A stretch of DNA of 57,052 nucleotides from Acidimicrobiaceae bacterium (GTDB lineage Bacteria; Actinomycetota; Acidimicrobiia; Acidimicrobiales; Aldehydirespiratoraceae). The stretch lies in contig VXTM01000026.1 in assembly GCA_009837445.1 (NCBI GenBank), positions 68,470 through 125,521 of the forward strand. Reading direction: 5' to 3'. A program made the position numbers and the translations under genes. This document shows, one piece after another, positions 16,186 through 56,405 of the stretch (its first letter is position 1; each line of letters starts with the position of its first letter). The notes beneath the pieces are model-generated. The model saw only the letters and a program-made list of their open reading frames with translations. It was not told the DNA's origin and searched no databases.

Positions 16186-16208
16186 AGCGCGAGGTCCTCG
16201 ACGGTCAC
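16169..16208 (-). repeat. Duplicated translation start with 8-codon mini-ORF
   Basis: A 17-base segment at 16169-16185 recurs exactly at 16192-16208. On the minus strand each copy reads GTGACCGTCGAGGACCT. The upstream copy overlaps the protease stop (GTGA), encodes V-T-V-E-D-L-A-L and ends in a TGA that itself overlaps the true TPR start (GTGA at 16185-16182). Confidence 0.75.
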
Positions 16209-17792: not shown

Positions 17793-18451
17793 CGGGACAC
17801 CTCATGGCGGACCATGCCGAGGACCTCGTCCACGGCGTCCTCAACCGGCTGCGAGAAGCCCCAGCCGAACTCGCTCTCGGCCGGCTCCACCTCGATGACC
17901 ACCGTGTCGTCGGGGAGCGCATTCCAGTGCCGGCACACGGCCAGGGTGTGGTCCAGGTCGACGATGCCGCCCACCGCCTCGCCCAGGCGTTCGTGCACCT
18001 CGTCGGGGTCGGGCTCGGGCAGCTCGGCGAGCGCGTAGCGCCGGACCGTTCCGGGCGGTCCGGTGCCCCGGGGCATGCATCCGAGCAGCACCACCCGTCC
18101 GGGTTGCAGTTCCTGAAGACGGTGCATGACGCGGTGCGCGGCGTAGGACAGGTCTTCGAGCACCACGCCGTCGGGCCAGGCCAGCGTGGCGGCCCGGGCC
18201 AACCAGTTCGTGCCGAAGTCGAGGTCGCGCAGCCAGGGCAGGCCGATGCCTCCCACCAGCGTGCAGCCCGGCTCGGCCTCACCCCGCCCGGGCTTCACCT
18301 GGGCGCCGGGACCCAGCAGCGTGTCGAGTACCTCGTCCCGCCCGGCCCACGTTGCCGGCGTCACCGGCGGGTCCGCGCCCGCAGGGAGGTCAGCGGGGGG
18401 TGTCGCCTGGGCTGGAGGGTTGTCGGGAGTGCCGTCGGATGCGGCCCGCAT
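17789..18451 (-). CDS. Divergent hydrogenase-maturation-protease-like protein
   Basis: A 220-aa protein with a Pro/Ala-rich N-terminal ~40 residues. The core GCTLVGGIGLPWLRDLDFGTNWLARAATLAWPDGVVLEDLSYAAHRVMHRLQ ... RVVLLGCMPRG resembles the Rossmann-like M52 fold, but G-I-G-L-P-W-L-R-D-L-D-F-G replaces the usual G-N-x-L-x-x-D-D-G-x-G. Metal ligands may be changed, so it could be a non-proteolytic chaperone of the large subunit. ATG 18451 shares a base with the large-subunit stop (TGATG), implying tight coupling with it. A canonical M52 protease is three genes downstream. Confidence 0.6.
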   Translation of the reverse strand: MRAASDGTPDNPPAQATPPADLPAGADPPVTPATWAGRDEVLDTLLGPGAQVKPGRGEAEPGCTLVGGIGLPWLRDLDFGTNWLARAATLAWPDGVVLEDLSYAAHRVMHRLQELQPGRVVLLGCMPRGTGPPGTVRRYALAELPEPDPDEVHERLGEAVGGIVDLDHTLAVCRHWNALPDDTVVIEVEPAESEFGWGFSQPVEDAVDEVLGMVRHEVSR

Positions 18452-20367: not shown

Positions 20368-21603
20368 CTAGCGGCCTCCCTCGTGAGAGTGCTGTTTGCG
20401 GGAGTAGAGCCGGTGGATCAGGCGCTCAGCCCCGACGGGCTGCGTCTTGTAGCGACCCCAGCCGCTGGGGAGGTCGCGGTCGTCGTGCCAGCGGGCCGAG
20501 CGCATCTTGTCGCTCTGGGACAGCTGGCGCATGCGCCGGATGAACCCGCCGAACACCCGGTTGGTGTTGGTGGACAGCATGGCGCCCGGGGGCCGCTCGT
20601 ACATGGGGGAGAACTTGTCGGGGAAGCCGGGCATGGTGCAGCCGATGCAGATGCCGCCCATGTTCATGCACCCGCCGTGGCCGTCGACGATGCCCCGCTC
20701 GGCGATGTTGCACTGCACGATCGGACCCCAGCACCCCAACTCGACCAGGCACTCCTTGTCGCCGTAGGAGTGGGCGAACACGCCCTCCTCGTAGTAGCCG
20801 GCCCGCGGGCAGTGGCGATGGACGGTCTCGGTGAACAGCCACGCGGGCCTCCCGAGCTCGTCGAACTCGGGCAGCGGCGCGAGGCCGTTGAGGAACAGCA
20901 GGGCCGCGGCGGCCGTCTCGGTGATGTTGTCGCCCACCGGGGAGCAGCCCGGGATGTTGATCACCGGCAGCCCCAGAGCCGACCGGTAGTCCTTGCCCAG
21001 GTGGTCCATGACGCCCATGGCGTTGGTGGGATTGCCGTGCGCGGCCGGGATGCCGCCCCAGCAGGCGCAGGTGCCGATCGACAGCACGGCGGCGGCGCCG
21101 GGAGCCAGGCGGTCGAGCCACTCCAGGCTGGTTATCTGGCGGCCGTCGGTGCGGTCCTCGCCGAGCCCCATCCAGTAGCCGTACTCGCCCGAGACGGTCT
21201 CGTCCATGATCGACCCCTCCCAGAAAATCAGGTAGGGGGCGTCGAGCTTGCCCTCGGCCGCCAGGCGGAGGTTCTCGGTCCACTCCGGCCCCGACTCCAC
21301 CGACAGCACCGTGTGGATGAGCTCGATGCGGGGCAGTCCCGGAACCCGGCCGGTCAGCAGGTCCTCGACCCTGGGGTGGGTGGCGCCGGATATGGCGATG
21401 GTGCAGCCGTCGCAGCTGGCACCCACGATCCAGAACAGGTAGGCCTTCTCCAGCGGCCCCTGGGAGACCAGCTCGGATCGCTTGGGCCGCAGGGGGCTGC
21501 GAAGGGCGACCGGCGCCAGCGGGTCGGCGGGGTCGGTGATGAGCGGCTTGGCCTCTAGTTCGCCGTGCGTCGAGCCCGGCACGACCTTGGTGTACTGAAC
21601 CAC
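20368..21603 (-). CDS. hhyS: [NiFe] hydrogenase small subunit
   Basis: A 411-aa electron-transfer subunit. C64-D-G-C67 begins the proximal-cluster site, with further cysteines in IGTCACWGG and IPGCSPVGDN; the medial/distal sites are HRHCPRAGY, ELGCWGPIVQCN and GGCMNMGGICIGCTMPGFP. No twin-arginine signal, so the enzyme is cytosolic or on the inner membrane face. The C-terminal ~60 residues are basic and may bind a partner. GTG 21603 is chosen: GGGAGG precedes it by 8 bases, and the longer frame runs into the operator at 21654. It lies 6 bp before the large-subunit gene. Confidence 0.92.
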   Translation of the reverse strand: MVQYTKVVPGSTHGELEAKPLITDPADPLAPVALRSPLRPKRSELVSQGPLEKAYLFWIVGASCDGCTIAISGATHPRVEDLLTGRVPGLPRIELIHTVLSVESGPEWTENLRLAAEGKLDAPYLIFWEGSIMDETVSGEYGYWMGLGEDRTDGRQITSLEWLDRLAPGAAAVLSIGTCACWGGIPAAHGNPTNAMGVMDHLGKDYRSALGLPVINIPGCSPVGDNITETAAAALLFLNGLAPLPEFDELGRPAWLFTETVHRHCPRAGYYEEGVFAHSYGDKECLVELGCWGPIVQCNIAERGIVDGHGGCMNMGGICIGCTMPGFPDKFSPMYERPPGAMLSTNTNRVFGGFIRRMRQLSQSDKMRSARWHDDRDLPSGWGRYKTQPVGAERLIHRLYSRKQHSHEGGR

Positions 21604-21653
21604 GAAAGAAGCCTCCCAAGCGTGGACCTGCCAGCAGGAATGAAATCCTAACA

Positions 21654-21674
21654 CTAAGTGCGAATCGCATCTAG
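21654..21674. promoter_or_regulatory. Shared 21-bp palindrome, copy 1 (hydrogenase/hyp divergent promoter)
   Basis: Left arm ctaagtgcg, spacer aat, right arm cgcatctag: seven of nine positions are complementary. It lies 51 bases upstream of the small-subunit GTG and 55 before the ATG at 21729, so it can control both divergent operons. The same arms recur at 31908 and 39390. Confidence 0.7.
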
Positions 21675-22919: not shown

Positions 22920-23262
22920 GCCGGCCGACGGGCTCCCGCGGCGGTTCCTGCCCGCGTTCCTGCTGCTCGGCCTGGAGCGCGCCGGCACGTCCTACGGCTA
23001 CGAGCTCTACGAGACCGTCACGTCGCTGGGCCTGTCGGTGGACCTGGCCGCGGTCTATCGCGGGCTGCGGACCATGCAGCAGCGCGACCTAGTCACCTCG
23101 CAGTGGGTTCCGTCCCTCTCCGGACCGGATCGACGCCTGTACTCGCTCACCGAATCCGGACGGCAACAGGCCCGGGCCGCGGCCACCGAGCTGGCAGCGG
23201 TGCGCGACGGCCTTGTAGCCGCCCTGGAGCACTTCAGCACCCGCGACGGCGCTCCCGCATGA
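22909..23262 (+). CDS. PadR-family transcriptional regulator
   Basis: A 117-aa winged-helix protein: RRFLPAFLLLGLERAGTSYGYELYETVTSLGLSVDLAAVYRGLRTMQQRDLVTSQWVPSLSGPDRRLYSLTESGRQQ is the standard PadR N-terminal domain (G-Y-E-L, L-Y-R-x-L, R-x-Y-x-L-T-x-x-G). The usual C-terminal dimerisation helices are short. ATG 22909 overlaps the preceding gene by 11 bases and the next by four (ATGA). As the only classic DNA-binding regulator in the operon it is a good candidate for recognising the 21-bp palindromes. Confidence 0.85.
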   Translation: MPTEPADGLPRRFLPAFLLLGLERAGTSYGYELYETVTSLGLSVDLAAVYRGLRTMQQRDLVTSQWVPSLSGPDRRLYSLTESGRQQARAAATELAAVRDGLVAALEHFSTRDGAPA

Positions 23263-24038
23263 GGATCGCGGTCGCGGGCAAGGGCGGCGCCGGCAAGACC
23301 ACCATCTGCGCGACCGCGGCCCGGCTCATGGCCAGGTCGGGCCACCGGGTGGTGGCCATCGACGGCGACACCAACCCCAACCTGCACGCAGCCATCGGGG
23401 TCGAGACGGCCGCGGCGGCTCCGTTCCTGCCCACGTCGCTGGTGTCGCGCCGCTTCGACGGGCCGCGGCTGACGGCCCCGGTGGACGAGGTCCTCGACCG
23501 GCACAGCGTGCCCGCTCCCGACGGTGTTCGCCTCGTGCGCATGGGGATGCCCCAGCACGCCGACGAGGGCTGCATGTGTTCCGCGCACGCCACCGTGAGC
23601 GCCTTCCTCGCCGATCTCGGCGCCGCGCCGGGCATGGTCACACTGCTGGACCTCGAAGCGTCCCCGGAGCACCTGAGCCGGGGGACGGCCCGGCACTCCG
23701 ACGTGCTGCTGCTCGTGGCGGAGCCCTACTACCGGTCGCTGGAGGCGGTGAGGCTGCAGGCCTCGCTGGCGGCCGAGACCTCCATCGGCCGGGTGGCGGT
23801 GGTGGCCAACAAGTGCCGCCAGCCGTCGGACTTCGACGCCATCGAGGAGTACTGCCACCGCCACGGGCTGGAACTGGCCGGCGCCCTGCCCTGGTCGGAC
23901 GCCGTGCTCGACGCGGACGGCGCGTCCCGGCCCTTGCTCGACCACGCCCCCGGCGACCCGGTGGTCGGCGAACTCGACACGTTGTTCGGTGCTCTCGTGA
24001 CCGGGTCAGGGGTCGCACGAGCGGAGGCCGGCGTCTGA
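23259..24038 (+). CDS. CooC-like nickel-handling ATPase 1
   Basis: A 259-aa SIMIBI-class ATPase: MRIAVAGKGGAGKTT is the deviant Walker A, VVAIDGDTNPNL switch I, LLDLEASPEHLSRG switch II. The C-x-C of CooC is present as C105-M-C107 (in DEGCMCSAHATVSAFL). In CooC of CO dehydrogenase systems this motif binds nickel at the dimer interface and ATP hydrolysis drives its transfer. Here it is coupled to hypC (TGATG), implying nickel loading of the hydrogenase. Replaces the expected HypB position. Confidence 0.85.
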   Translation: MRIAVAGKGGAGKTTICATAARLMARSGHRVVAIDGDTNPNLHAAIGVETAAAAPFLPTSLVSRRFDGPRLTAPVDEVLDRHSVPAPDGVRLVRMGMPQHADEGCMCSAHATVSAFLADLGAAPGMVTLLDLEASPEHLSRGTARHSDVLLLVAEPYYRSLEAVRLQASLAAETSIGRVAVVANKCRQPSDFDAIEEYCHRHGLELAGALPWSDAVLDADGASRPLLDHAPGDPVVGELDTLFGALVTGSGVARAEAGV

Positions 24039-24307
24039 TGTGTGTCGGGATCCCCGCCCGGGTTGTCGAGCTGGAGTCCTCGGGTCCCCATACCGCCATC
24101 GTCGATGTGGACGGGGCGCAGCGGGAGGTCAACACCGTCATGGTCGACGACGAACCGCTCGCCGTCGGCGAGTGGGTGCTGCTGCACGTCGGGTTCGCCA
24201 TGTCCAAGATCGATGCGGCCGAGGCCGCCGACACGCTGGCGTTCATGCGGGAGCTCGGATCGGTGTACGACGAGGAGATCGAGGCCTTCACCAGCGACCT
24301 GCCATGA
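24038..24307 (+). CDS. hypC: Hydrogenase maturation chaperone HypC
   Basis: An 89-aa protein starting M-C-V-G-I-P-A-R-V-V, the invariant HypC/HybG N terminus whose Cys2 binds the Fe(CN)2CO precursor. VGEWVLLHVGFAMSKIDAAEA is the second conserved region of the beta-barrel. HypC shuttles between HypD, where the Fe(CN)2CO unit is built, and the large subunit. Starts inside the CooC stop (TGATG) and overlaps the SIS gene by four bases. Confidence 0.95.
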   Translation: MCVGIPARVVELESSGPHTAIVDVDGAQREVNTVMVDDEPLAVGEWVLLHVGFAMSKIDAAEAADTLAFMRELGSVYDEEIEAFTSDLP

Positions 24308-25435: not shown

Positions 25436-26566
25436 GTGAAGTACGTCGACGAGTTCCGCGACCCCGAGGCAGCCCGCCGTCTGCTGGCCGACATCGCCGA
25501 CGCGGCCGCCGACCAACCGCACCGGAAGTTCATGGAGGTCTGCGGGGGTCACACCCACGCCATCTACCGGCACGGCATCGAGGCCCTGCTCCCCGACAGC
25601 ATCGAGCTCATCCACGGGCCGGGGTGCCCGGTGTGCGTCATCCCGATGGGCCGTGTCGACGACGCCGTCGCGGTCGCCTGCGCCGACGGCGTGACCATGT
25701 GCTGCTTCGGGGACATGATGCGGGTGCCGGGCGGGGAGTCGACCCTGCTGGAGGCCAAGGCCGGCGGCGCCGATGTCCGCGTCGTGTACTCGCCGCTGGA
25801 CGCGCTCGCGCTCGCGGAGCGCAACCCCGACCGCCAGGTCGTGTTCCTCGCCGTCGGCTTCGAGACCACCGCGCCCTCGACCGCGGTCACGCTCCTGCAG
25901 GCCCGCGAGCGCAACGTCGACAACTTCAGCGTGTTCTGCAACCACGTCACCATCGTCCCCCCGCTGAAGGCCATCCTCGACTCGCCCGGGCTCGACCTCG
26001 ACGGCTTCCTGGGGCCCGGTCACGTATCCACCGTGATCGGCACCCACCCGTACCGGTTCGTCCCGGCGCAGTACGGACGGCCCCTGGTCACCGCTGGCTT
26101 CGAGCCGGTGGACATCCTCCAGGCGGTGCTGATGCTGCTGCACCAGCTAGCCGAGGGACGCTGCGAGGTGGAGAACCAGTACCGGCGGGTCGTGTCCGGT
26201 GCCGGCAACAGCAGGGCGCTGGAGCTGCTGCGAGAGGTCTTCGTGGTGAGGCCGCACTTCGAGTGGCGGGGCCTTGGGTTCATCGCCCAGAGCGCTCTGG
26301 CCATCGCGCCCGAATTCGCGCCGTGGGACGCCGAGCTGCGCTACGACGTGCCCGGTGTGCGGGTGGCGGACCCGAAGGCCTGCCAGTGCGGCGAGGTGCT
26401 CAAGGGAGCGCTGCGGCCGTGGGAGTGCAAGGTCTTCGGAACGGCCTGCACCCCCGAGACGCCGATCGGCACCTGCATGGTGTCGTCGGAGGGCGCCTGT
26501 GCCGCCTACTACAACTACGGGCGGTACTCGAGCCGGTCGCGCATCCCGGTCCACGCATCGACCTGA
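25436..26566 (+). CDS. hypD: Hydrogenase maturation protein HypD
   Basis: A 376-aa [4Fe-4S] scaffold on which the Fe(CN)2CO group is assembled with HypC. Landmarks: KFMEVCGGHTHAIYRHG near residue 30, the IHGPGCPVCV active-site motif near residue 60, GFETTAPSTA, and the C-terminal cluster cysteines CQCGEVLKG, WECKVFGTACTPETPIGTCMVSSEGACAAYY. All the usual cysteines are present. GTG 25436 is preceded by GAGG; a 100-bp gap separates it from the SIS gene, the largest break in the operon. Shares a base with hypE (TGATG). Confidence 0.95.
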   Translation: MKYVDEFRDPEAARRLLADIADAAADQPHRKFMEVCGGHTHAIYRHGIEALLPDSIELIHGPGCPVCVIPMGRVDDAVAVACADGVTMCCFGDMMRVPGGESTLLEAKAGGADVRVVYSPLDALALAERNPDRQVVFLAVGFETTAPSTAVTLLQARERNVDNFSVFCNHVTIVPPLKAILDSPGLDLDGFLGPGHVSTVIGTHPYRFVPAQYGRPLVTAGFEPVDILQAVLMLLHQLAEGRCEVENQYRRVVSGAGNSRALELLREVFVVRPHFEWRGLGFIAQSALAIAPEFAPWDAELRYDVPGVRVADPKACQCGEVLKGALRPWECKVFGTACTPETPIGTCMVSSEGACAAYYNYGRYSSRSRIPVHAST

Positions 26567-27657
26567 TGCCGTCCGAGGACGACTTCGAGGCACGAGAGGC
26601 GGTTCTGGCCCGGGTCGAGTCGTGGCGGCGGCGCGCCCCCAGGCTCACCGACGACACCATCACCATGGCCCACGGGGCCGGTGGCAGGGCCAGCCAGTCG
26701 CTGATCGAGGCCGTCATCCGCCCGGCCTTCTCCAACCCGGCGCTCGACCGGCTCGAGGACGGCGCCGTGCTCGAGGCCGGAGAGGGCAGGCGCCTGGCCG
26801 TGACCACCGACGCCTTCGTGGTCACACCCCGCCGCTTCAACGGAGGCTCCATCGGCGACCTGGCCGTGAACGGCACCGTCAACGATCTGGCCGCCATGGG
26901 GGCCGAGCCCGCGGCGCTCACCGTCTCGCTGGTGCTGGAGGAGGGGCTGGCGGTCGAGGAGCTGCGAGCCATCGTGGACGATGTGGCCCGGGCGGCCGCA
27001 TCCGCCGGCGTCGACATCGTCACCGGCGACACCAAGGTGGTCGAGCGGGGCGCGGCCGACGGCTGCTACATCACCACCACCGGGATCGGGTTCGTGAGAA
27101 CGGGTGCGCAACTGGACGCCGCGGCGGTGCGGCCCACGGACGCGCTGGTGCTCTCCGGCACGATCGGCGACCACGGCGTGGCCGTGATGGTGGCCCGCGG
27201 CGACCTGGCCCTGGCCGCCGACGTGGCGTCGGACACTGCGCCGCTGCATCAGCTGGTAGCGGCCCTGCTGGACGCGGTGCCGGCCACCCGGTGGCTGCGG
27301 GACCCGACCCGCGGCGGGGTGGCCTCCATCTGCAACGAACTGGCGGCCGCATCCGGGCTGGGGGTGGAGTTGGACGAGCGGGCCTTGCCGGTGCGGGGCG
27401 CGGTGGCCGGGGCGTGCGAGCTGCTGGGCCTCGACCCGCTGTACATCGCCAACGAGGGCAAGATGCTGGCGGTGGTTCCCGCCGCCGACGCCGAGACCGC
27501 GGTGGAGGCCATGCGGAGCTGCGAGGCCGGCGCCGACGCCTGCGTGGTGGGCAACGTCACCGACGAGCACCCGGGCCTGGTGCTGGTGCGAACCGGCTTC
27601 GGAGGAACGAGGATCGTCGACATGCTGGTCGGCGACCCCCTGCCCCGGATTTGCTGA
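26566..27657 (+). CDS. hypE: Hydrogenase maturation protein HypE
   Basis: A 363-aa PurM/AIR-synthase-like ATPase that dehydrates the carbamoyl group on its C-terminal cysteine to make the cyanide ligands. ITMAHGAGGRASQSLIEAVI is the N-terminal signature, VTTDAFVVTPRRFNGGSIGDLAVNGTVNDLAAMGA the substrate and ATP region, and the protein ends exactly in P-R-I-C, the modified Cys363. Start ATG 26566 overlaps the hypD stop. An N-terminal ~30-residue extension rich in Glu and Arg precedes the conserved part. Confidence 0.95.
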   Translation: MPSEDDFEAREAVLARVESWRRRAPRLTDDTITMAHGAGGRASQSLIEAVIRPAFSNPALDRLEDGAVLEAGEGRRLAVTTDAFVVTPRRFNGGSIGDLAVNGTVNDLAAMGAEPAALTVSLVLEEGLAVEELRAIVDDVARAAASAGVDIVTGDTKVVERGAADGCYITTTGIGFVRTGAQLDAAAVRPTDALVLSGTIGDHGVAVMVARGDLALAADVASDTAPLHQLVAALLDAVPATRWLRDPTRGGVASICNELAAASGLGVELDERALPVRGAVAGACELLGLDPLYIANEGKMLAVVPAADAETAVEAMRSCEAGADACVVGNVTDEHPGLVLVRTGFGGTRIVDMLVGDPLPRIC

Positions 27658-29581: not shown

Positions 29582-31843
29582 CTAGCCGCGGTTGGTCAGA
29601 GTGGCCCGGCCTATGGCTGCTTGGCCAAGGGCGATCCCCCCGTCGTTGGGCGGGACCTGCCGGTGGTGGAGGACCTCGAAACCCGCCTTCTCGAGGTCAG
29701 GCACCAGCAACTCAACCAACCGGCGGTTCTGGAACACGCCACCCGACAGGGCCACCGCTGACAGCCCGGTCGACTCACGGGCCTGACGGCTCGCGGCCAC
29801 GGCCGCGTCGGCGACCCACCGGTGGAACGCCGCCGCGATCAGCGCCGGCGACTGCCCGGCCAGCAGGTCCGAGATGACGGCACCGATCAGCGGCGAGAAC
29901 TCGATCACGGCCGGCGTGCCTTCGCTGATCTCGACGGGGTAGCGCCTGACTTCGGGGCCCGCGGCCTGCTCAAACCGGATGGCGGCCTGACCCTCGTACG
30001 TAACCGACTCGACCAGGCCGCATAGGGCTGCCATCGAGTCGAACAAGCGGCCCACTGAGGTGGTGAGGATCGACCGGCCCGGACGGCACTGGTCCAGCAC
30101 ACGCTCCGCCTCCTCTTGGTGGCCGGCGAGAGAACCGATCGCGGGCACGTCTGGGCCGGTCTTCTCGAACAGGTGGGCCAGCGCCATGCGCCAGGGCTGG
30201 CGGACCGCGGCGGTTCCGCCGGGCATGGGCACCGCGCGGAGGTGGGCGAAGCGCTCGTAGCCGTTCGCGTCGCCCACCAGGATCTCGCCGCCCCACAGGG
30301 TGCCGTCGATGCCCCAGCCCATCCCGTCGAACATCACGCCGATGGCCGGGCCGCGATGGCCCGTGTCGGTCAGGCAGGACGCCAGGTGGGCATGGTGGTG
30401 CTGCACCCCCAGGCGGGGAGCGAGGTCGCTGCTGGCCGCGAACTTGGTGGACAGGTACTCGGGGTGCAGGTCGTGCACCAGCAGCTCCGGTGCGGCCCGG
30501 GTCAGCTCCAGCAGGTCGGCCACCGCAGCCTCGAAGGCGGCCAGCGCGGCCGGATGCTCGAGATCGCCGAGGTGCACCGACATGTGGGCGTCGGCACCGA
30601 GGGCCAGACAGACCGTGCTCTTGAGTTCCGCGCCCACGGCCAGCACGGACGGGCCGTCGCGGTCCAGCCGCACGGCGCCGGGGGCGTAGCCCCGGGCACG
30701 GCGCAGCAACTGGAAGTCCCCCGCTATGACGTGGCCCACGGAGTCATCGGCCCGGCGCTCGATCACCCGGTCGTGGCCGAGCACCGCGTCGGCGATGACG
30801 CCCAGCTCGGTCCCAACCTGGGCGTCGTCGATGACGATGGGCTCGTCGGAGCGGTTGCCGCTGGTGCACACCAGGGCCACACCGGCCGCATCGGCCAGCA
30901 GGGCATGTAACGGCGTGGCGGGGAGCATCACCCCCAGCAGGCGGGTGTCGGGGGCCACCTCGGGCGCGACCGGCGCCGACTCCCGCCGCGGCGCGAGCAC
31001 GATGGGCGCCTCGGGCCCGGTCAGGGCTCGCACCGCCAGGTCGTCGAGGTCGATTAGCTCCCCGGCCGCGTCGACCGAGGCGACCAGCAGCGCGAACGGC
31101 TTCTCCTCCCGGTGCTTGCGCCGTCTCAGCCGGGTCACCGCTGCGCTGTCGTCGGCCCGGCACGCCAGTTGGTAGCCGCCGACACCCTTGACGGCGACGA
31201 TGTTGCCGGCCTGGAGCAGGGCGATAGTCCCTTCGACAGGATCGAGGTAGATAGGTTCCCCAGTCATCGACCGCAACGACAGCGCCGGTCCGCAACTGGG
31301 GCAGCACACCGCCTGGGCATGGTGACGCCGATCGGTCGGATCCTGGTACTCGGTCTCGCAGGCCTCGCACAGTTCGAAGGCCGCCATCGAGGTGCGCTCG
31401 CGGTCGTAGGGCAGGCTCCGCACGACCGTGTAGCGGGGCCCGCAGTCGGTGCAGCAGGTGAACGCGTACCGGTAGCGGCGCCCATCGGGATCCGCTATCT
31501 CGGCGAGACACGAAGAACAGGCGGCGACATCGGGGGGAACGGTGCCGGCGACCGTGCCGGAGCCGGACGCGCTGACCGCGATCGAGAACTCCCGCTCTCC
31601 CTCCACCGGCGGCACGTCCGCAGAGCGAACCAAGTCCACCCGGGCGAGAGGAGGGGCCTCGGCGGCAACCCGCGCCTCAAACTCGTCGAGGTCGGCTCGG
31701 TGCCCCTGGACCTCACACCACACGCCCTCGTCGTCGTTGCCCGCGGCGCCCGTGAGCGACAGGCTCCGGGCCAGCCGGTGCAGGTGGGGCCGGAATCCCA
31801 CGCCCTGGACGGTGCCCGCGATGCGCAAGCGGCGGCGCCCCAT
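29582..31843 (-). CDS. hypF: Carbamoyltransferase HypF
   Basis: A 753-aa multidomain enzyme that makes the carbamoyl group for HypE from carbamoyl phosphate. Order: acylphosphatase domain (RLRIAGTVQGVGFRPHLHRLA, residues 4-90), two C-x2-C-x18-C-x2-C zinc fingers (ACSSCLAEIADPDG ... CCTDCGPRY; CEACETEYQD ... CCPSCGPAL), a YrdC-like adenylation domain (VAVKGVGGYQLACRADD), and the Kae1-like C-terminal domain with the HHHAHLASCL metal site. Full length and intact. Its start faces the palindrome at 31908. Confidence 0.95.
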   Translation of the reverse strand: MGRRRLRIAGTVQGVGFRPHLHRLARSLSLTGAAGNDDEGVWCEVQGHRADLDEFEARVAAEAPPLARVDLVRSADVPPVEGEREFSIAVSASGSGTVAGTVPPDVAACSSCLAEIADPDGRRYRYAFTCCTDCGPRYTVVRSLPYDRERTSMAAFELCEACETEYQDPTDRRHHAQAVCCPSCGPALSLRSMTGEPIYLDPVEGTIALLQAGNIVAVKGVGGYQLACRADDSAAVTRLRRRKHREEKPFALLVASVDAAGELIDLDDLAVRALTGPEAPIVLAPRRESAPVAPEVAPDTRLLGVMLPATPLHALLADAAGVALVCTSGNRSDEPIVIDDAQVGTELGVIADAVLGHDRVIERRADDSVGHVIAGDFQLLRRARGYAPGAVRLDRDGPSVLAVGAELKSTVCLALGADAHMSVHLGDLEHPAALAAFEAAVADLLELTRAAPELLVHDLHPEYLSTKFAASSDLAPRLGVQHHHAHLASCLTDTGHRGPAIGVMFDGMGWGIDGTLWGGEILVGDANGYERFAHLRAVPMPGGTAAVRQPWRMALAHLFEKTGPDVPAIGSLAGHQEEAERVLDQCRPGRSILTTSVGRLFDSMAALCGLVESVTYEGQAAIRFEQAAGPEVRRYPVEISEGTPAVIEFSPLIGAVISDLLAGQSPALIAAAFHRWVADAAVAASRQARESTGLSAVALSGGVFQNRRLVELLVPDLEKAGFEVLHHRQVPPNDGGIALGQAAIGRATLTNRG

Positions 31844-32022: not shown

Positions 32023-33798
32023 ATGCGACGACTGAGACTGATCGGTGCGATCCTCGCCCTGGCGCTGCTAGCAGCGTCCTGCGGCGACGACGGCAGCGAC
32101 GAGCCGGTATCTCAGCCGGCCGAGCCTGCGGCCGAGGGACCTTCTGCCGAGCCTGAGACCGCGGCCGAGGAGCCTGCTGAGGAGCCAGCGCCCGCTGCGG
32201 AGCCGGAGCCCGCGGCCGAGCCTGAGACCGCGGCCGAGGAGCCGGCCGATGAGGAGCCTGCTGCGGAGTCTGAGCCCGCGGCTGAGGAGCCCGCGGCCGA
32301 GGACCCGCGCCGCGGCGGCACGCTGGTCATCGCTCTCTCCGACGATCCCGGCCACTTCAACCCCGGCATAACCACCGGGTTCAACGTGCACGCCGTCACC
32401 GGATCGATCTTCAACGGCCTCGTCGAGCTGGACGACAACGCCAACCCCCACCCCGACCTGGCCGAGAGCTGGGACGTCAGCGACGACAGCACCCAGTACA
32501 CCTTCCACCTCGCCCAGGGCGTGCGCTGGCACGACGGCGAGCCCCTGACCTCCGCCGACGTGAAGTTCACCTTCGAGAACGTTCTGCTGGACTACCACTC
32601 GCGCACCAGGGGCGGTCTCAGCGGCATCCTCGAGTCGATCGACACGCCCGACGCCACCACCGTGGTATTCAACTTCACGCAGCCCTACGCGGCTCTGCTG
32701 CAGCGGCTGAACTCCACCGAGGCGCCCATACTGCCCAAGCACATCTACGAGGGCGTCGACGACGTGCAGACCGCGGACGCCAACCTCACGCCGGTGGGCA
32801 CCGGCCCGTTCAAGCTGGAGTCCTACGACATCGACAACGAGATCACGCTGGTCCGCAACGACGACTACTTCAAGGCGGGCCTGCCCTATCTCGACCGGGT
32901 CGTGATGAGGGTGATCCCCGACCAGAACACGCAGGTGCTGGCCCTCGAGGAGGGCGAGGTCGACTACATCTGGCGGGTCCCCGGCGGCGACATCGAGCGC
33001 CTCGGCAGTGACGACTCCATCACGCTGCACAACATCAACAGCGGCCCCGGCGGCGGGTTCTGCATCCCGACGCTGACCTTCAACTCGGACCGCGAGGTGT
33101 TCAGCGACCTGCGGGTCCGCCAGGCCATAGCCCACGCGGTCAACCGCGACCAGCTCGTGGCCCAGGTGCTGTTCGGCCAGGGCCGGGTGGCCACCGGGCC
33201 GATCAACAGCCAGATGGCCTTCGCCTACAGCGACGACGTGACCAGCTACCCCTACGACGTCGACCGGGCCACCGCGCTGCTCGACGAGGCCGGATACGCG
33301 TCCGGCGGGACCCGCTTCAGCATCGACCTGTTGGTTTTCAGCTTCGGGGTGTTCCCCAAGTACGCCGAGGTGATGCGGCAGAACCTCGCTGAGGTCGGGA
33401 TCGATGTGGTGGTGACGCCTCTGGACCGAAGCGCCTTCATCCCGAGGGTGTTCGGTGAGCGCGACTTCGACACCAACATCATCAGCTACTGCAACAACAC
33501 CGACCCGTCGATCGGCGTCGCCCGCATGTACATCTCCAGCAACATCGGCGACATCCCGTTCTCGAACGGCGCGGCCTACATCAACCCGGCCATCGATGTG
33601 CTGTTCGACGAAGCGGCCAGCACCCCCGACGTCGCCCGGCGGGGCGAGCTCTACGCCGAGATCCAGAGGATCCTCACCGCCGAGCTGCCGTACCTGTGGC
33701 TGGTCGAGACCCAGTTCACGGCTGGCTCCGGTGCCAACGTTCAAGGTCTCCAGGCCAACTCCGGACACGTCGCCGAGACCGCCTACTTCGAGGAGTAG
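32023..33798 (+). CDS. Family 5 solute-binding lipoprotein, probable nickel-complex binding
   Basis: A 591-aa lipoprotein: signal MRRLRLIGAILALALLAASC with lipobox LAAS-C at residue 20, then a ~75-residue Glu/Pro/Ala linker, then the DppA/OppA/NikA fold (RRGGTLVIALSDDPGHFNP; NPHPDLAESWDVSDDSTQYTFHLAQGVRWHDGEPLTSADVKFTFE; the family signature region). AAAGGA lies 7 bases before ATG 32023. Family 5 proteins bind peptides or Ni/Co chelates; the shared operator and the hydrogenase genes on both sides favour nickel, but no specific ligand residue can be named. Confidence 0.85.
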   Translation: MRRLRLIGAILALALLAASCGDDGSDEPVSQPAEPAAEGPSAEPETAAEEPAEEPAPAAEPEPAAEPETAAEEPADEEPAAESEPAAEEPAAEDPRRGGTLVIALSDDPGHFNPGITTGFNVHAVTGSIFNGLVELDDNANPHPDLAESWDVSDDSTQYTFHLAQGVRWHDGEPLTSADVKFTFENVLLDYHSRTRGGLSGILESIDTPDATTVVFNFTQPYAALLQRLNSTEAPILPKHIYEGVDDVQTADANLTPVGTGPFKLESYDIDNEITLVRNDDYFKAGLPYLDRVVMRVIPDQNTQVLALEEGEVDYIWRVPGGDIERLGSDDSITLHNINSGPGGGFCIPTLTFNSDREVFSDLRVRQAIAHAVNRDQLVAQVLFGQGRVATGPINSQMAFAYSDDVTSYPYDVDRATALLDEAGYASGGTRFSIDLLVFSFGVFPKYAEVMRQNLAEVGIDVVVTPLDRSAFIPRVFGERDFDTNIISYCNNTDPSIGVARMYISSNIGDIPFSNGAAYINPAIDVLFDEAASTPDVARRGELYAEIQRILTAELPYLWLVETQFTAGSGANVQGLQANSGHVAETAYFEE

Positions 33799-33929
33799 CG
33801 GGACAGATCACGACCCGCCGCCCCGGTCCCGGTACTTCGCGGCCGCGGCCAGGGCGGTGGGCATTTCTGCTAGAACGCGGGATCCGGGCCGCCGCCGGAG
33901 GGCGCTCGGGCCGTGGAGAGGAGGCGCTG

Positions 33930-34895
33930 GTGGTCCGGTACACCGTGAGACGCCTCCTGCAGGCCGTGCCGCTCGTGTTCGGCGCGGCGGTCGTGACCTG
34001 GATCCTGATCCACGCGGCGCCCGGCGACCCGATCGTCGCCCTCGCCGGCGAGGACGGTGACGCTGGCTACTACGCCATGATGCGGGAGCGCTTCGGGCTG
34101 GACCGCCCGCTGCACGAGCAGCTCTTCGTCTACCTGGGCCGGCTCGCTCAAGGCGACCTGGGGTTCTCGTACCGGCAGAACCGGTCCGCGGTGAGCGTGA
34201 TCCTCGACCAGCTGCCGGCCACGCTGCTGCTGATGGTCCCTGCGCTGGCCGTGGCCTCCGTCATCGGGATCAGCGTGGGAACCCTCGCTGCGGCCCGCAA
34301 GAACTCGGCGCTGGACAACACCGCCCGCACCGCGACCCTGCTGGGCCACGCGGTGCCGGTCTTCTGGCTCTCTCAAGTGCTGCTGCTGCTGTTCGCGCTG
34401 CGCTTCGACTGGTTCCCGGTCCAGGGCCGCAGCGACGCCCGGGCGGGCTACGAGGGGTTCCGGGCCCTGCTCGACGTGGGCCACCACATGGTGCTGCCCA
34501 TCGCCGCGCTGGTGACGGTGTACGTCCCGCCGATCATGCGGGTCACCAGGGCGGCGGTGATCGAGAACCTCGATGAGATGTACATACGAGCCGCCCGGGC
34601 CCGGGGCCAGTCGCGCCGCCGGGTGCTGATCCGCCACGCCCTCCCCAACGCCATGCTGCCCATAGTCACCGTGATCGGGAGCCAGATCGGCTTCATGTTC
34701 GCCGGCTCGGTCCTGGTCGAGACGGTGTTCGCCTGGCCCGGGCTCGGCCGGCTGCTGCTGAGCGCCATCCTGGCCCGCGACTTCGCCATCATCACCGCGA
34801 TGCTGCTGATGCTGTCGGTGACCATCATCTTGATGAACCTCATCACCGACCTCGTGTACTCGCTCCTGGATCCGCGGGTGCGTCATGGCACGTGA
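33930..34895 (+). CDS. ABC transporter permease, DppB/NikB type
   Basis: A 321-aa inner-membrane permease with about six helices. VRYTVRRLLQAVPLVFGAAVVTWILIHAAPGDPI is the typical N terminus and MYIRAARARGQSRRRVLIRHALPNAMLPIVTVIG the EAA loop that docks the ATPases. GTG 33930 is chosen: GGAGG lies 6 bases before it and the frame upstream is a shadow. A 130-bp gap follows the binding-protein stop; the two are still likely one transcript. Confidence 0.88.
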   Translation: MVRYTVRRLLQAVPLVFGAAVVTWILIHAAPGDPIVALAGEDGDAGYYAMMRERFGLDRPLHEQLFVYLGRLAQGDLGFSYRQNRSAVSVILDQLPATLLLMVPALAVASVIGISVGTLAAARKNSALDNTARTATLLGHAVPVFWLSQVLLLLFALRFDWFPVQGRSDARAGYEGFRALLDVGHHMVLPIAALVTVYVPPIMRVTRAAVIENLDEMYIRAARARGQSRRRVLIRHALPNAMLPIVTVIGSQIGFMFAGSVLVETVFAWPGLGRLLLSAILARDFAIITAMLLMLSVTIILMNLITDLVYSLLDPRVRHGT

Positions 34896-35832
34896 GGGGC
34901 GGGCCGCGGAGCCGGTCACGCTCAGAGAACGGGCCGCCTCCGGCCCCGGCCCGGGCCGGCCGAGAGGGTCGGACCCCGCCGGCGCCCGGGCGGCACGGGG
35001 CTCCTGGCGGCGGTTCGCGTCCAGCCCGGTGGCGGTCGTCGGGCTCGTGTTGACGGTCCTGTTCGTGCTGGTCGCCGCGCTGACCTCAGTCATCGCTCCC
35101 ACCGACCCGTTCTCGTTCGCGGGAACGCCTTTCGAGCCGCCCTCGGCCAAGCACTGGCTCGGCACCGACGACCTGGGACGCGACGTCGGTGCGGGTGTGG
35201 TCCACGGCGCCCGCACCAGCCTGTTCGTTGGGGTGGCGGTGGCTGGCGCATCGCTGGTCATAGGCACCGTCGTGGGCGGTGTGGCCGGATTCGCGGGCGG
35301 CAAGGTCGACGACCTGCTTATGCGCCTGACCGAGCTCTCGCAGGTCTTGCCCCGGTTCTTCCTGGCGCTCACGGTGGTGGCCCTGTTCGGCCCCGGTCTG
35401 ACGAACATGGTGCTCGTCTTGGCGCTGACATCATGGGAGTTGACCGCCCGGGTGTCGCGCTCGGGGGTGCTGGCCGTCAGGGAGCTCGAGTACGTCACCG
35501 CGGCCGAGGCGCTGGGCTCGTCGCCGTGGCGCAACCTGCGCACGCACGTGCTGCCCAACACGATCGCGCCGGTGGTGGCGCTGGCCTCGCTGCAGGTGGG
35601 CGGGGCCATCCTGATCGAGGCCAGCTTGAGCTTCCTGGGGCTGGGCGACCCCAACGTGATCAGTTGGGGCTACATGCTCAACAACGCGCAGTCCTTCGTG
35701 CGCCGTGCCTGGTGGATGTCGGTCTTCCCCGGCCTGGCCATCGCGGTGGCGGTACTGGGCGTCAACCTGCTGGGCGACGCCCTCAACGACTTCTGGAACC
35801 CGAGGTCCCGCTCGGGGGGAGCATCGGCATGA
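34885..35832 (+). CDS. ABC transporter permease, DppC/NikC type
   Basis: A 315-aa permease: ~45 polar N-terminal residues, then WRRFASSPVAVVGLVLTVLFVLVAALTSVIAP, the HWLGTDDLGRDVGAGVVHGARTSLFVG signature of the OppC N-terminal region, and the EAA loop LEYVTAAEALGSSPWRNLRTHVLPNTIAPVVA. Overlaps the NikB-type gene by 11 bases and the next ATPase by four (ATGA). Partners the other permease as a heterodimer. Confidence 0.9.
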   Translation: MAREGRAAEPVTLRERAASGPGPGRPRGSDPAGARAARGSWRRFASSPVAVVGLVLTVLFVLVAALTSVIAPTDPFSFAGTPFEPPSAKHWLGTDDLGRDVGAGVVHGARTSLFVGVAVAGASLVIGTVVGGVAGFAGGKVDDLLMRLTELSQVLPRFFLALTVVALFGPGLTNMVLVLALTSWELTARVSRSGVLAVRELEYVTAAEALGSSPWRNLRTHVLPNTIAPVVALASLQVGGAILIEASLSFLGLGDPNVISWGYMLNNAQSFVRRAWWMSVFPGLAIAVAVLGVNLLGDALNDFWNPRSRSGGASA

Positions 35833-36806
35833 CCGAGCCGTTGCTGAGCGTCGAAGGCCTCCGCACTCATTTCTTCGTTGAGGCCGGGGTGGTCAAAGCG
35901 GTCGACGGGGTCAGCCTTGAGATCCGGCGGGGCGAGGTCGTGGGCCTGGTGGGCGAGTCCGGATGCGGCAAGACGGTGACTTCGCTGTCGATCGCCGGCC
36001 TCATCGAACCGCCCGGGCGGATCGTCGACGGGTCGGTGCGCTTCGACGGGACCGAGTTGGTGGGAGCACCTGAGCGGGTGCTCAACTCGGTGCGAGGCCC
36101 GAGGATCGCCATGATCTTCCAGCAGCCCCGGGCCTCTCTGGACCCTGTCATGTCGGTGGGGCGCCAGATCAGTCAGGCGCTGCGGTCCGGCACCGGCATG
36201 GACCGCCCCGCTCGCCGCCGCCGGGCCGTCGAGCTGCTCAACCGGGTCGGCATCTCCGACCCCGACCGCCGGGTCAGGGAGTATCCGCACCAGCTGTCGG
36301 GCGGGATGGCTCAGCGAGTGATGATCGCCATCGCTCTGGCCGGTGAGCCCGACCTGCTTATCGCGGATGAGCCGACCACCGCGCTCGACGTCACCGTGCA
36401 GGCGCAGATTCTCGAGCTGCTGCGGGAACTCCAGGCGGCCAACGACATGGCCGTCATCCTGGTCACCCACGACCTGGGAGTGGTGGCGGAGATCGCGGAC
36501 CGGGCCGCGGTGATGTACGCCGGCCGCATCGTCGAGGAGTGCTCCGTGTCGGAGCTGTACGACGCGCCGCTGCATCCCTACACCGTCGGGCTCATGGAGT
36601 CGCGGCCGGCGGCATCGCATTCCAAGAGCCGCCTGCGGGTGATACCGGGCAGCGTGCCCGTGCCCCTCGACCTGCCGGTGGGATGCAGTTTCGCGCCCCG
36701 CTGCGAGGCGCGGTCCGCCACCAACCTGACGGTGTGCACCGAACAGGCACCCCAGTCCGTGTCGCCCCGGGACGGGCATCGCGTGAGGTGCTGGCTCCAT
36801 GGGTAG
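35829..36806 (+). CDS. ABC transporter ATPase, DppD/NikD type
   Basis: A 325-aa ATPase with Walker [13 protein letters not shown], signature [15 protein letters not shown], Walker [13 protein letters not shown] and H-loop THDLG, plus the C-terminal oligopeptide/dipeptide extension with [18 protein letters not shown], a cysteine cluster that in some members carries an Fe-S cluster. Energises the uptake of the ligand. Coupled to the permease (ATGA). Confidence 0.92.
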
Positions 36807-37803
36807 CGCACCCGCGAACGGGCCGGCCGCCGCCGCGGAGCCGGCGCTGCTGGAGGTCACCGACCTCGTCAAGCACTACCGGATCCGCTCCCGGCAGTTG
36901 GCTCGCTCCGGGTTGTCACTCCGAGCGGTCGACGGGGTCAGCTTCCGTGTCGGCGCCGGCGAGACGCTCGGGCTGGTGGGTGAATCCGGTGGCGGCAAGA
37001 CGACGGTCGGCCTCAGCGTGCTGCGCCTCGTCCAGCCCAGCGGAGGCACGGTGAGCTTTGAGGGCCGCGACGTGCTCGCGGCCGGCCGGGTCGAGCTGAA
37101 GGCCCTCCGGCAGCGGATGCAGATCGTGTTCCAGGATCCGATCGGCGCGCTGGATCCCCGCAAGAGCGTCGGCGACAGCGTGGCCGAGGGACTGAGGATC
37201 CAGGGCCTGGCGCCGCGGGCGGAGGCGCGCCGTCGGGCCGTCGAGGTCCTCGATCGTGTGGGACTCACCCCGGCCCAGGCCCGCAGCCTGCCCCACGAAC
37301 TGTCGGGCGGCCAGCTCCAGAGGGTCGGCATCGCCCGGGCCCTGGTGCTCGATCCTCGACTCGTGGTGTGCGACGAGCCCGTGTCGGCGCTCGACGTCTC
37401 GATCCAGGCTCAGATCATCAACCTGCTGCTGGACCTCCAGGACGAGCGCGGCCTCGCCTACCTGTTCATCGCCCACGACCTGGCCCTGGTCCAGCACATC
37501 TCGGACCGGGTCGCGGTCATGTACCTGGGACGCATCGTCGAGTCGGCCCCGGCCGGGGAGTTGTTCGGCAGTCCGGCCCATCCCTACACCCGGGCGCTGC
37601 TCTCGGCTGTCCCCGCCGATCATCCCTCCGCAGCCCGGCAGCGCATGGTGCTGAGGGGCGAGATCCCCAGCGCCAGCGCGCCGATGACTGGCTGCCCGTT
37701 CGCCCCCCGATGCCCCGACGCGATGGCCAAGTGCAGCGACGAGGCGCCCCAGTTCAAAGAGATCTCCCCCGGCCGCTGGGCCGCCTGCTTCCTCAATGAC
37801 TGA
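36799..37803 (+). CDS. ABC transporter ATPase, DppF/NikE type
   Basis: A 334-aa second ATPase: Walker A GESGGGKTTVGLSVLRL, PIGALDPRKSVGDSVAEGL, signature LSGGQLQRVGIARAL, Walker B LVVCDEPVSALD, H-loop AHDLA and C-terminal CPFAPRCPDAMAKC. Overlaps the NikD-type gene by 8 bases. Completes a standard five-protein peptide/nickel importer. Its end meets the MinD-type ATPase gene. Confidence 0.92.
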   Translation: MGSAPANGPAAAAEPALLEVTDLVKHYRIRSRQLARSGLSLRAVDGVSFRVGAGETLGLVGESGGGKTTVGLSVLRLVQPSGGTVSFEGRDVLAAGRVELKALRQRMQIVFQDPIGALDPRKSVGDSVAEGLRIQGLAPRAEARRRAVEVLDRVGLTPAQARSLPHELSGGQLQRVGIARALVLDPRLVVCDEPVSALDVSIQAQIINLLLDLQDERGLAYLFIAHDLALVQHISDRVAVMYLGRIVESAPAGELFGSPAHPYTRALLSAVPADHPSAARQRMVLRGEIPSASAPMTGCPFAPRCPDAMAKCSDEAPQFKEISPGRWAACFLND

Positions 37804-37849: not shown

Positions 37850-38626
37850 ATGATCCGGGTGGCGTTCGTGGGCAAGGGAGGCGCGGGCAAGTCGACCATC
37901 GCGGGCACGTTCGCCCGGCTGCTGGCCCGGCGAGGCCAGCCGGTGCTCGCACTGGACTCCGATCCGATGCCGGGGCTGCCCTACTCCCTGGGCGTGGGCG
38001 TGGACGACCATCCCATACCCGACGACGTGGTCGTCGCCGGCCCGGAGGGCGGACCCCGATGGGTGCTCCGTCCCGGCCTGGACGCGGCCGCCATCGTGGA
38101 CCGGTACGCGGCGCGGTGCCCCGACGGCGTCCGCTACCTGCAGTTCGGCAACCTGTGGGGCCACGTAGTGAGGCTCCAGCAGGCCCAGCACGCCTGGAGC
38201 CAGGTGGTCGAGGAACTCGACCGGGACTCGTGGCACTTGGTCGGCGACCTTCCCGGCGGCACCCGCCAGGCCATGTTCGGCTGGGGCAAGTACGCCGACA
38301 CCGTGTGCGTGGTGGTCGAGCCGACCGTCAAGTCGATGCACACGGCTAGGCGCCTCTTGACCCTCTCAGGGGCGAGGTGGGGGCCGTCGCGCCTGGTGCT
38401 CGTCGTCAACAAGGCACGCGACGGCTCCGACGCGGCCCGCGTTTCGGAGCGCCTGGGGCTGGAGGCGGCCGCGGTCGTACCCCACGACGGCACCGCCGGT
38501 CGGGCCGACCGTCGCGGCGCCGCCCCCTTGGACTCCGCTCCCGGTGGCCCGCTGGCCGGAGCCGTGGATGGCTTGGTTGACCATGTCGTGTCGCTCTACT
38601 CTCTCGGCCGGGAGGTGACGCAATGA
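37850..38626 (+). CDS. MinD/CooC-type ATPase lacking the C-x-C motif
   Basis: A 258-aa (from ATG 37850) paralogue: MIRVAFVGKGGAGKSTIAGTFARLLARRGQPVLALDSDPMPGLPYSLGV keeps Walker A and switch I; HLVGDLPGGTRQAMFGW is switch II. The segment where the others have C-x-C reads VRYLQFGNLWGHVVRLQQAQHAWSQVVEEL, with no cysteine. ATG 37796 overlaps the transporter gene and is an alternative start, but the family begins at MxR/KxAxVGKGG. The stop overlaps the start of the U-x-U gene (ATGA), so the two are made together; a heterodimer is plausible. Confidence 0.8.
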   Translation: MIRVAFVGKGGAGKSTIAGTFARLLARRGQPVLALDSDPMPGLPYSLGVGVDDHPIPDDVVVAGPEGGPRWVLRPGLDAAAIVDRYAARCPDGVRYLQFGNLWGHVVRLQQAQHAWSQVVEELDRDSWHLVGDLPGGTRQAMFGWGKYADTVCVVVEPTVKSMHTARRLLTLSGARWGPSRLVLVVNKARDGSDAARVSERLGLEAAAVVPHDGTAGRADRRGAAPLDSAPGGPLAGAVDGLVDHVVSLYSLGREVTQ

Positions 38627-39357
38627 AGATCGCCGTCGTGGGCAAGGGTGGGGCCGGCAAGACCACCACCAGCGCGGTGCTGGCCCGCACCTTGGGCCGC
38701 CGGGGCGCCCGGGTGGTCGCCCTCGACTGCGACACCAACCCCAACCTCGGCCTGTCGCTGGGGGTCGGCGACTCCGAGACCGAGCGGCTCCTGACCCTGC
38801 GCGAGGAGGTCGGCGACGGCGCAGCCGACCATGCACCGACCTGGGAGGACATCCTCGACCGCTACGGGGCCGACGCCCCCGACGGGGTGCGCCTCTCGGT
38901 GATCACCCGCATCGAGAATCCCGAGCCGGGTTGACCTTGATGCGGTCTGTCGGCCGAGCAGTTGCTCGGCTCCGTGAATGACGAGTCCACCACCGTTGTG
39001 GCCGACCTCGAGGCTGGGATAGGCACCCTGACCCGGCTGGCCAGCGCGTCGGTGGACGCCACCGTGGTGGTGGTGGAGCCGACGCTGCGCTCGATCGACG
39101 TGGCCCGCCGGGCCGTCGCGGTCGCCGACGAGCAGCGTCAGGGCCGGGTAGTGGTCGTGGCCAACAAGGTGGGAGACGACGAGGACCGGGCCCGCATCGA
39201 CGAGGCCTTCGCCGGCCGGAGGATGGTGGTGGTCCCCGACGACCCGGCAGTGGACACCGCCGACCGGCTCGGGGTGTCGCCGGTCGACCACGAGCCCGGC
39301 GCCCCCGCCGTGGCGGCATTGGAGAGCCTGGTCGAAGCACTGGGCCTTGCGAGCTGA
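38623..39357 (+). CDS. CooC-like ATPase selenoprotein with U-P-U motif (two in-frame UGAs)
   Basis: A 244-aa reading frame if UGA at 38932-38934 and 38938-38940 are read as selenocysteine. The first part has Walker A (MKIAVVGKGGAGKTTTS) and switch I (VVALDCDTNPNLGLSLG); the second has switch II (TVVADLEAGIGTLTR) and VVVVEPTLRSIDVARR, all in one frame with no other stop. The codons give ENPEPG-U104-P-U106-C107-GLSAEQLLGS, which aligns with AAAGC103-T-C105 and ADEGC105-M-C107 of the paralogues. In CooC that C-x-C binds nickel at the dimer interface. ATG 38623 overlaps the preceding gene (ATGA). Alternative: a pseudogene with two nonsense codons. Position, SECIS-like hairpin and tRNA-Sec argue for Sec. 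Confidence 0.82.
38953..38970 (+). promoter_or_regulatory. Candidate bacterial SECIS hairpin
   Basis: GCCGAGC (38953-38959), loop AGTT, GCTCGGC (38964-38970): a perfect 7-bp stem extended by a G-U pair at 38952/38971. The loop begins 25 bases after the first UGA and 19 after the second and has G at its second position. These fit the published bacterial SECIS consensus (apical loop about 16-37 bases from the UGA with an early G). One hairpin could serve both UGAs. Confidence 0.65.
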
Positions 39358-39389: not shown

Positions 39390-39410
39390 CTAGATGCAGA
39401 ATGCATCTAG
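39390..39410. promoter_or_regulatory. Shared 21-bp palindrome, copy 3 (distal small membrane proteins)
   Basis: Arms ctagatgca and tgcatctag flank gaa: a perfect 9-bp inverted repeat, the best of the three copies. It lies 41 bases before ATG 39451 and just after the U-x-U ATPase gene, so the two small genes probably have their own regulated promoter. Confidence 0.72.
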
Positions 39411-56309: not shown

Positions 56310-56405
56310 TGGCGGAGGTGGACGGGAATCGAACCCGCCGGACGGGGATCGCCCGTCCCACCCGCTTTGAAGGCGGGGGAGCCCACCAGGCGCTCAGACA
56401 CCTCC
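56310..56405 (-). tRNA. selC: tRNA-Sec (anticodon UCA)
   Basis: 96 bases including an encoded 3' CCA. On the minus strand the 5' acceptor strand is GGAGGTG (T at the next position) and the 3' end is CCACCTCC-G-CCA. The anticodon arm is CCCGC-CTTCAAA-GCGGG, loop centre TCA, which reads UGA. A long variable arm (GGGACGGGCGATCCCCGTCC) and a T-arm GCGGG-TTCGATT-CCCGT follow. Length, G73 discriminator, long variable arm and U-C-A anticodon match bacterial tRNA-Sec (E. coli selC is 95 bases). The eighth acceptor pair is a T-C mismatch. A Ser or Leu tRNA would not have this anticodon. Confidence 0.92.

Follow-up and report, generated by a model that had tools for sequence, protein, structure and literature searches.

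We report a gene for a CooC-type ATPase, at 38623..39357 of a 57,052-nucleotide stretch of the genome of an Acidimicrobiaceae bacterium (contig VXTM01000026.1; "the window" below is this whole stretch), in which the C-x-C motif is written TGA-CCT-TGA, with TGC following at 38941-38943. Comparison with related sequences indicates that the gene very probably encodes a selenoprotein, and, with somewhat less confidence, we consider it likely that the product is a CooC-type ATPase with two selenocysteines (Sec, U) which serves the [NiFe]-hydrogenase of its own gene cluster as a metal carrier, nickel being the most likely cargo. The gene and the elements discussed first are the following (bSECIS, bacterial selenocysteine insertion sequence):

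38623..39357, forward strand: CooC-type ATPase gene; reading through both UGAs would give 244 residues, with the predicted motif U104-P-U106-C107
38932..38934, forward strand: first in-frame UGA, residue 104, aligned to CooC1 Cys112
38938..38940, forward strand: second in-frame UGA, residue 106, aligned to CooC1 Cys114
38953..38970, forward strand: predicted bSECIS hairpin GCCGAGC-AGUU-GCUCGGC, by fold, pair counts and codon fixation
56310..56405, reverse strand: tRNA-Sec, anticodon UCA (RF01852, 68.3 bits)

The frame begins with ATG at 38623 and, the two internal TGAs aside, stays open to the terminal TGA at 39355-39357; its translation reads MKIAVVGKGGAGKTTT...IENPEPG*P*CGLSAEQLLGS..., where * stands for TGA. 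A first-pass annotation of this DNA had placed the two TGAs at residues 104 and 106 of one otherwise open ATPase frame, with a cysteine as the next residue, and had matched them to C103/C105 and C105/C107 of two paralogues in the window (28779-29543 and 23259-24038, respectively), all of which was confirmed. When all six frames of the window were scanned for TGAs flanked on either side by roughly 90 or more open codons with a coding-type G+C pattern, this UGA pair was the only place returned. Genome-wide recoding of UGA was considered and rejected, UGA being an ordinary terminator in the window, where it ends 9 of the 14 genes counted.

The final set of orthologues described here was picked out by the pattern [stop or C]-x-[stop or C]-C-[GA]-[LIVM]-S-x-E-[QR]-L-L, by which diverged members would be missed. 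An ortholog spanning the motif at at least 59% identity was found in 22 of 100 genomes searched, our own included, and the motif held two TGAs in 20 of these, C-x-TGA in one (G090) and C-x-C in one (G095). A further search, of 395 genomes of the class, matched 12 of them at E 1e-35, and scanning named genome contigs added 44 loci. After identical sequences were merged (L083 with L010), L062 was dropped as overlapping the same gene as L057, and L023 was left out for its unreadable motif (G038; 61% identity, residues 121-239 only), 43 distinct orthologues were obtained: 29 U-x-U, five C-x-TGA, one C-x-TAG and eight C-x-C, i.e. 35 with a stop codon at one or both motif positions. L102, in which the frame is broken upstream of the motif, was scored from its motif as a Cys form and kept out of the tree described below; L010 lacks its start and entered neither the tree nor the codon table. 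Most named U-x-U loci carry the label Acidimicrobiia or Acidimicrobiales; C-x-TGA is held by two Nocardioidaceae metagenome-assembled genomes (MAGs) and three others, and C-x-C by Amycolatopsis marina, three Nocardioidaceae MAGs, a Jiangellales MAG, a Sporichthyaceae MAG, G095 and G324. The gene at 38623..39357 shows in-frame UGAs with conserved coding sequence on both sides, and Cys homologues aligned at the UGA positions. In a list of homologues of the Cys form (120 of 782, a list that cannot contain UGA forms), C-x-C-C was present in 120 of 120, 113 by pattern and seven by eye.

These data bear on whether the codons are mere accidents. The first-pass annotation had argued that random nonsense mutations would not be expected to strike just these two codons, and both stops indeed occur at exactly these codons in 29 of the 43 orthologues. 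A sequencing error, which it had named as a possible refutation, was ruled out by the identical two UGAs in other assemblies. Decay in close relatives, likewise named, was not seen, for both UGAs are kept there and the frame is otherwise open; moreover, in each of six relatives (ungapped comparison) more than half of the differences 3' of the UGAs fall on third codon positions. A pseudogene was ruled out by the conserved UGAs, the open frames and this third-position bias. On a tree for which the stops in the motif were entered as Cys, nine changes are needed among the three motif states, and well-supported branches force at least three changes for C-x-C; because of these changes, Sec, as predicted from the codons, and Cys appear to have been interchanged repeatedly in the family, the direction not being settled.

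The predicted hairpin lies 3' of the motif, its loop starting 19 nucleotides after the second UGA and 25 after the first. It consists of an 8-bp stem and the 4-nucleotide loop AGUU, and the 54-nucleotide stretch containing it folds at -21.5 kcal/mol (z -2.06 versus shuffles). The bacterial SECIS model, as given in the relevant part of PMC13188914, has an apical loop of 3-9 nucleotides with G in the first two positions and a stem of 4-16 bp, 16-37 nucleotides from the UGA, with a minimum free energy of at most -7.5; the hairpin agrees with it in its loop (a G within the first two positions, then U), spacing, stem and energy. Its codons GAG-CAG-TTG-CTC recur unchanged in 35 of 35 stop forms, compared with one of eight Cys forms. 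The codon of Leu114 is TTG in 34 of 34 sequences, a codon that accounts for 47 of the 680 Leu codons in 14 window genes, and the other conserved Leu columns listed (Leu34, Leu42 and Leu56) use four codons each; Leu115 (CTC) and Ile97 (ATC) are likewise fixed. The stem covaries: of 32 distinct rows, 10 have U-A in place of C-G and six have C-G in place of G-C. In the stop forms 98.2% of stem cells are paired, with 16 double-change cells, compared to 62.5% paired in the Cys forms. Paired fraction, double-change cells and covariation score were each reached by 0 of 500 shuffles, statistics whose force is limited by the kinship of the rows. One Cys form, L056 (1501-2223), still has GAG CAG TTG CTC; its genome holds selB over the cut-off and no tRNA-Sec over its cut-off, and this hairpin is perhaps a relic of a lost Sec state. 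The Rfam model RF00031 (SECIS_1), which we take to be a model of eukaryotic SECIS, had no match in our genome and none in a control, and was thus uninformative.

The genome also encodes the means to insert Sec. Besides the tRNA-Sec in the window, selA and selB stand close together on contig 21, and selD (L161; G000 contig 6, 36209-37123) has a TGA in HGAG-U-GCK and is itself a predicted selenoprotein, U-x-x-K being a known Sec motif of SelD (Table 1 of PMC13188914). The lack of selA, selB or selD, raised at first as a possible objection, therefore does not apply. Among 17 genomes with an ortholog or a UGA paralogue (G472, with a distant homologue only, was left out), a tRNA-Sec of at least 59 bits was found in seven of nine stop-coded and two of eight Cys-coded genomes, and selB over its cut-off in five of nine (with G463, at 234 bits, just below) and two of eight, respectively. 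The single C-x-TAG form, from Modestobacter sp. DSM 44400 (L098, motif 10310-10318), has TAG at the second of the two motif positions and an intact hairpin, and the tRNA-Sec of this strain (L123 1501-1596; RF01852, 66.9 bits) carries the anticodon CTA, ARAGORN labelling it Pyl. Because stop codon and Sec anticodon have changed together, which would otherwise be hard to explain, the motif codon would encode Sec. A CUA tRNA-Sec in Geodermatophilaceae has been published (PMC5330540), and L098 is likely a gene in which UAG specifies Sec, its family being none of those that passages of that paper name.

The protein belongs to the MinD/CooC/NifH superfamily. Its best sequence match in the PDB is CooC1 (63.7 bits, E 1.8e-16, residues 1-190), the next being MinD at 43 bits. 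As the first-pass annotation had proposed, the UGAs fall on the C-x-C of CooC, residues 104 and 106 being aligned to Cys112 and Cys114, the metal-binding cysteines of CooC1 according to the passages of PMC6006190 on this protein. The same passages describe cysteines from two chains that hold zinc at the dimer interface, and one nickel per dimer (dissociation constant 0.4 uM) at the same site, in competition with zinc (PMC6006190). An AlphaFold2 model of the monomer, with Sec modelled as Cys, has a CooC-like fold of this superfamily and a predicted local distance difference test score of 91.2. The protein shares with CooC1 of Carboxydothermus hydrogenoformans (3kje, 3kjg, 3kjh, 3kji) the deviant Walker A GKGGxGKT and the motif positions; unlike CooC1, it has two predicted Sec in place of Cys and is encoded beside hydrogenase genes. 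No model of carbon monoxide dehydrogenase was among the NCBIfam matches listed for 40 window frames, a search that covered neither the frames ahead of 9239 nor the remainder of the genome.

The gene lies in a hydrogenase cluster, whose features are as follows (ABC, ATP-binding cassette):

16205..16795, reverse strand: hydrogenase maturation protease (TIGR00072, E 3.8e-34)
17789..18535, reverse strand: second maturation protease-like gene (TIGR00072, 48.6 bits, just over the cut-off; no Pfam match)
18451..20361, reverse strand: [NiFe]-hydrogenase large subunit; among solved chains, HofG 5aa5_C is the closest
20368..21654, reverse strand: [NiFe]-hydrogenase small subunit
24038..24307, forward strand: hypC (TIGR00074, 77.8 bits, over the cut-off)
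25436..26566, forward strand: hypD (TIGR00075, E 1e-146)
26662..27657, forward strand: hypE, start approximate (TIGR02124, E 1.8e-121)
29582..31843, reverse strand: hypF (TIGR00143, E 4e-216)
32023..37803, forward strand: peptide/nickel-type ABC transporter of five genes, best NCBIfam models listed all below their cut-offs

HofG 5aa5 is presumably the actinobacterial-type (group 1h) hydrogenase of Ralstonia eutropha, and the large subunit encoded here has Cys, not Sec (DPCMPC). The window also holds a NifU-like gene and, in total, four MinD/CooC-type ATPases. Across the 100 genomes searched, a hydrogenase of at least 68% identity occurs in the 22 ortholog-bearing genomes and in G013; six further genomes have a hydrogenase of 57% identity or less and no ortholog, and three genomes of the same genus (G004, G010 and G014) are without both. 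A hydrogenase subunit or hypD, hypE or hypF genes accompany the ATPase gene at 24 of the 30 loci L073-L102. Within the cluster, the frame 24040-25335 has a SIS domain at its C-terminal end and an N-terminal part that overlaps hypC, its true start being probably internal. Downstream of the ATPase gene, 39394-39699 and 39716-39976 are two small genes for short, partly hydrophobic proteins without a Pfam or NCBIfam match, the former with a match near the ATPase gene at 22 of the same 30 loci.

HypA and HypB genes were tested in 25 carriers, namely 20 of the 22 ortholog-bearing genomes and five reached via named loci. hypB scored over its cut-off in four (G054, G079, G095 and Modestobacter); hypA gave matches, below its cut-off, in these four only and no match in the other 21. 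In G054 and G095, hypB is on the same contig as a second hydrogenase of 43% identity. hypC, in turn, was over its cut-off in 21 of 21 carriers given. Because hypA and hypB are scarce among carriers that hold hypC, HypA/HypB are probably unused for this HofG-like hydrogenase, which probably receives its nickel without them, and CooC-type ATPases are therefore obvious candidates for the insertion step. Archaeal HypB, an ATP-using nickel-insertion protein in the passages of PMC9164220 and PMC12134894 that treat it, sets a precedent for such a task being done by an ATPase. The predicted role of the 38623..39357 product is that of HypB/HypA, nucleoside triphosphate-driven delivery of nickel to hydrogenase; it differs from HypB in its family, TIGR00073 (hypB) not being among the ten NCBIfam families that match it at E 1e-5. 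In the P-loop, the ATPase has a weak match (24.0 bits) to 3vx3, which we take to be Thermococcus HypB.

The window contains three paralogues of the ATPase:

23259..24038, forward strand: paralogous CooC-type ATPase A, C105-M-C107
28779..29543, reverse strand: paralogous CooC-type ATPase B, C103-T-C105
37796..38626, forward strand: paralogous ATPase that lacks C-x-C and runs into the start of the UGA gene

The last has a homologue directly upstream of the ATPase gene at 28 of the 30 loci L073-L102, and its product may be a partner subunit. In other genomes the first motif position of both paralogues A and B was found as a single UGA, giving U-L-C for A (L155, L156 and L104) and U-T-C for B (L153 and L154). 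Hydrogenase genes are on the same stretch in L154, L155 and L156, and a maturation protease in L104; no hydrogenase gene was matched on the stretch of L153. In G333 (L156), a single cluster has UGAs in both paralogue A and the ortholog of 38623..39357. In another four members, L149-L152, the motif is U-T-G or U-G-G and lacks the second Cys, and no hydrogenase gene was matched on their stretches. Of nine UGA paralogues that were folded, six (L104, L150, L151, L152, L153 and L156) form a clean stem, similarly spaced and with GU in its loop, and three (L149, L154 and L155) have a different minimum-energy fold. Apart from these, a proteobacterial hydrogenase cluster (large subunit 53%), in a Rhodoferax sp. 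MAG (L110), has a paralogue-A-like ATPase next to hypF, hypD and hypE, and the link of such ATPases to this hydrogenase type may extend beyond actinobacteria.

In the mechanism we propose, ribosomes would insert Sec at both UGAs from the one downstream SECIS, giving U-P-U-C. The ATPase would dimerise like CooC1, with U104 and U106 of two chains forming a four-selenolate metal site in which nickel would be the bound metal and selenolates its ligands, and the nucleotide cycle would drive release of nickel to the hydrogenase large subunit, a step done elsewhere by HypB/HypA. For a wider version we see about even chances: that, for a HofG-like [NiFe]-hydrogenase, a set of CooC-type ATPases replaced HypA/HypB in actinobacteria, Sec being recruited separately at the metal site of three of them (U-x-U in the 38623..39357 family, U-L-C in A and U-T-C in B), with a nickel carrier whose dimer holds a tetraselenolate site and with decoding of UGA and, in Modestobacter, UAG.

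Several observations weigh against this proposal. Seven of 200 shuffles of the 54-nucleotide stretch fold equally well, two of five pair measures do not beat shuffles (number of double-change pairs, 354 of 500; pair types, 437 of 500), and a single SECIS serving two UGAs may be inefficient. The stop-coded genomes G469 and G471 (1.6 and 1.8 Mb) yielded no tRNA-Sec and no selB over the cut-off, and the Cys-coded G095 and G460 do have tRNA-Sec. G013 has the hydrogenase, and no UGA gene was found in its 420 contigs. A further 19 of the 25 genomes have hypB matches below the cut-off, which reach at most 53 bits (G059); these we have taken for other, putative GTPases. Fold searches do not single out CooC, since MinD, FleN, NifH and BchL chains score equally, and the substrate of the 32023..37803 transporter is not settled by family models. 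A uniform four-ligand site is disfavoured because of the U-T-G and U-G-G members without a second Cys. Finally, in the passages of PMC6006190 on Rhodospirillum rubrum, its CooC shows no tight nickel binding and CooC/T/J are not involved in the maturation of its hydrogenase.

The strongest rival, which we regard as unlikely, is that the protein is a genuine selenoprotein in which the Sec pair serves as a redox switch (a diselenide, or a selenenylsulfide with C107) or holds another metal or an Fe-S cluster. A third thiol does follow in UPUC, the U-T-G and U-G-G paralogues lack the second ligand, NifH and BchL folds score equal to CooC, and uncharacterised selenoproteins are mostly thought to function in redox, as stated in part of PMC13188914. 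However, both UGA positions coincide with the metal ligands of CooC1, the neighbourhood is one of hydrogenase maturation with hypA/hypB scarce among carriers, and all 120 listed Cys homologues have C-x-C-C.

We give very little weight to the two readings without Sec. Were the UGAs real stops, in two fragments or a decaying gene, the ordinary use of UGA as a stop here and a TTG-started frame at 38962, 3' of the UGAs, would be accounted for; yet the same two codons in an open frame in 29 orthologues with Cys in eight others, the covarying hairpin with fixed codons, the downstream third-position bias and the TAG motif codon paired with a CTA tRNA-Sec already contradict it by comparison. Reading of UGA as another amino acid, e.g. 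as Cys via a tRNA-Cys with a UCA anticodon, would agree with Cys as the alternative residue at both positions and appears equally improbable, given the UCA tRNA-Sec in the window, the UGA at a known Sec position in SelD of the same genome, and a fixed hairpin that goes with the stop codon with the one exception of L056.

The first-pass annotation had noted no described CooC selenoprotein, and the sources at hand agree with it. NCBIfam 20.0 (June 2026) has no selenoprotein model that matches the protein at E 1e-5; none of the 119 prokaryotic selenoprotein families and subfamilies of a 2026 catalogue is named CooC, MinD or ParA in its Table 1 (PMC13188914); and no CooC selenoprotein was among the matches listed from open-licence PubMed Central literature, as judged by titles and abstract beginnings. 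Term searches found 'CooC' in neither PMC12013277 (deep-Sep) nor PMC9312934, and gave no passage on UGA in PMC5424206. The nearest precedents in the catalogue, in its relevant parts, are a CobW-related selenoprotein and the SO_0444 Cu/Zn efflux transporter (U-x-C) (PMC13188914). The former (NF041053, U-x-x-C) is likewise a predicted selenoprotein of a P-loop family tied to metal handling, per passages of PMC13188914 and PMC9164220; it differs in being of a GTPase family, with one Sec and another motif. Selenium also meets nickel biology in the [NiFeSe]-hydrogenases (PMC13188914, in part), where Sec is in the enzyme itself, whereas here it is predicted in an assembly ATPase. The family has likely been overlooked because ordinary gene calling would split the gene in two.

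If true, the protein would be the first selenoprotein of CooC type and, on the evidence of these sources, the first nickel-insertion ATPase in which two Sec replace the metal ligands. It would open to test the route by which nickel reaches hydrogenases in bacteria that have hypC, hypD, hypE and hypF without hypA and hypB, and whether selenium can serve metal hand-over instead of catalysis. The Cys, single-Sec, double-Sec and UAG forms would make a natural series for measuring what selenium contributes.
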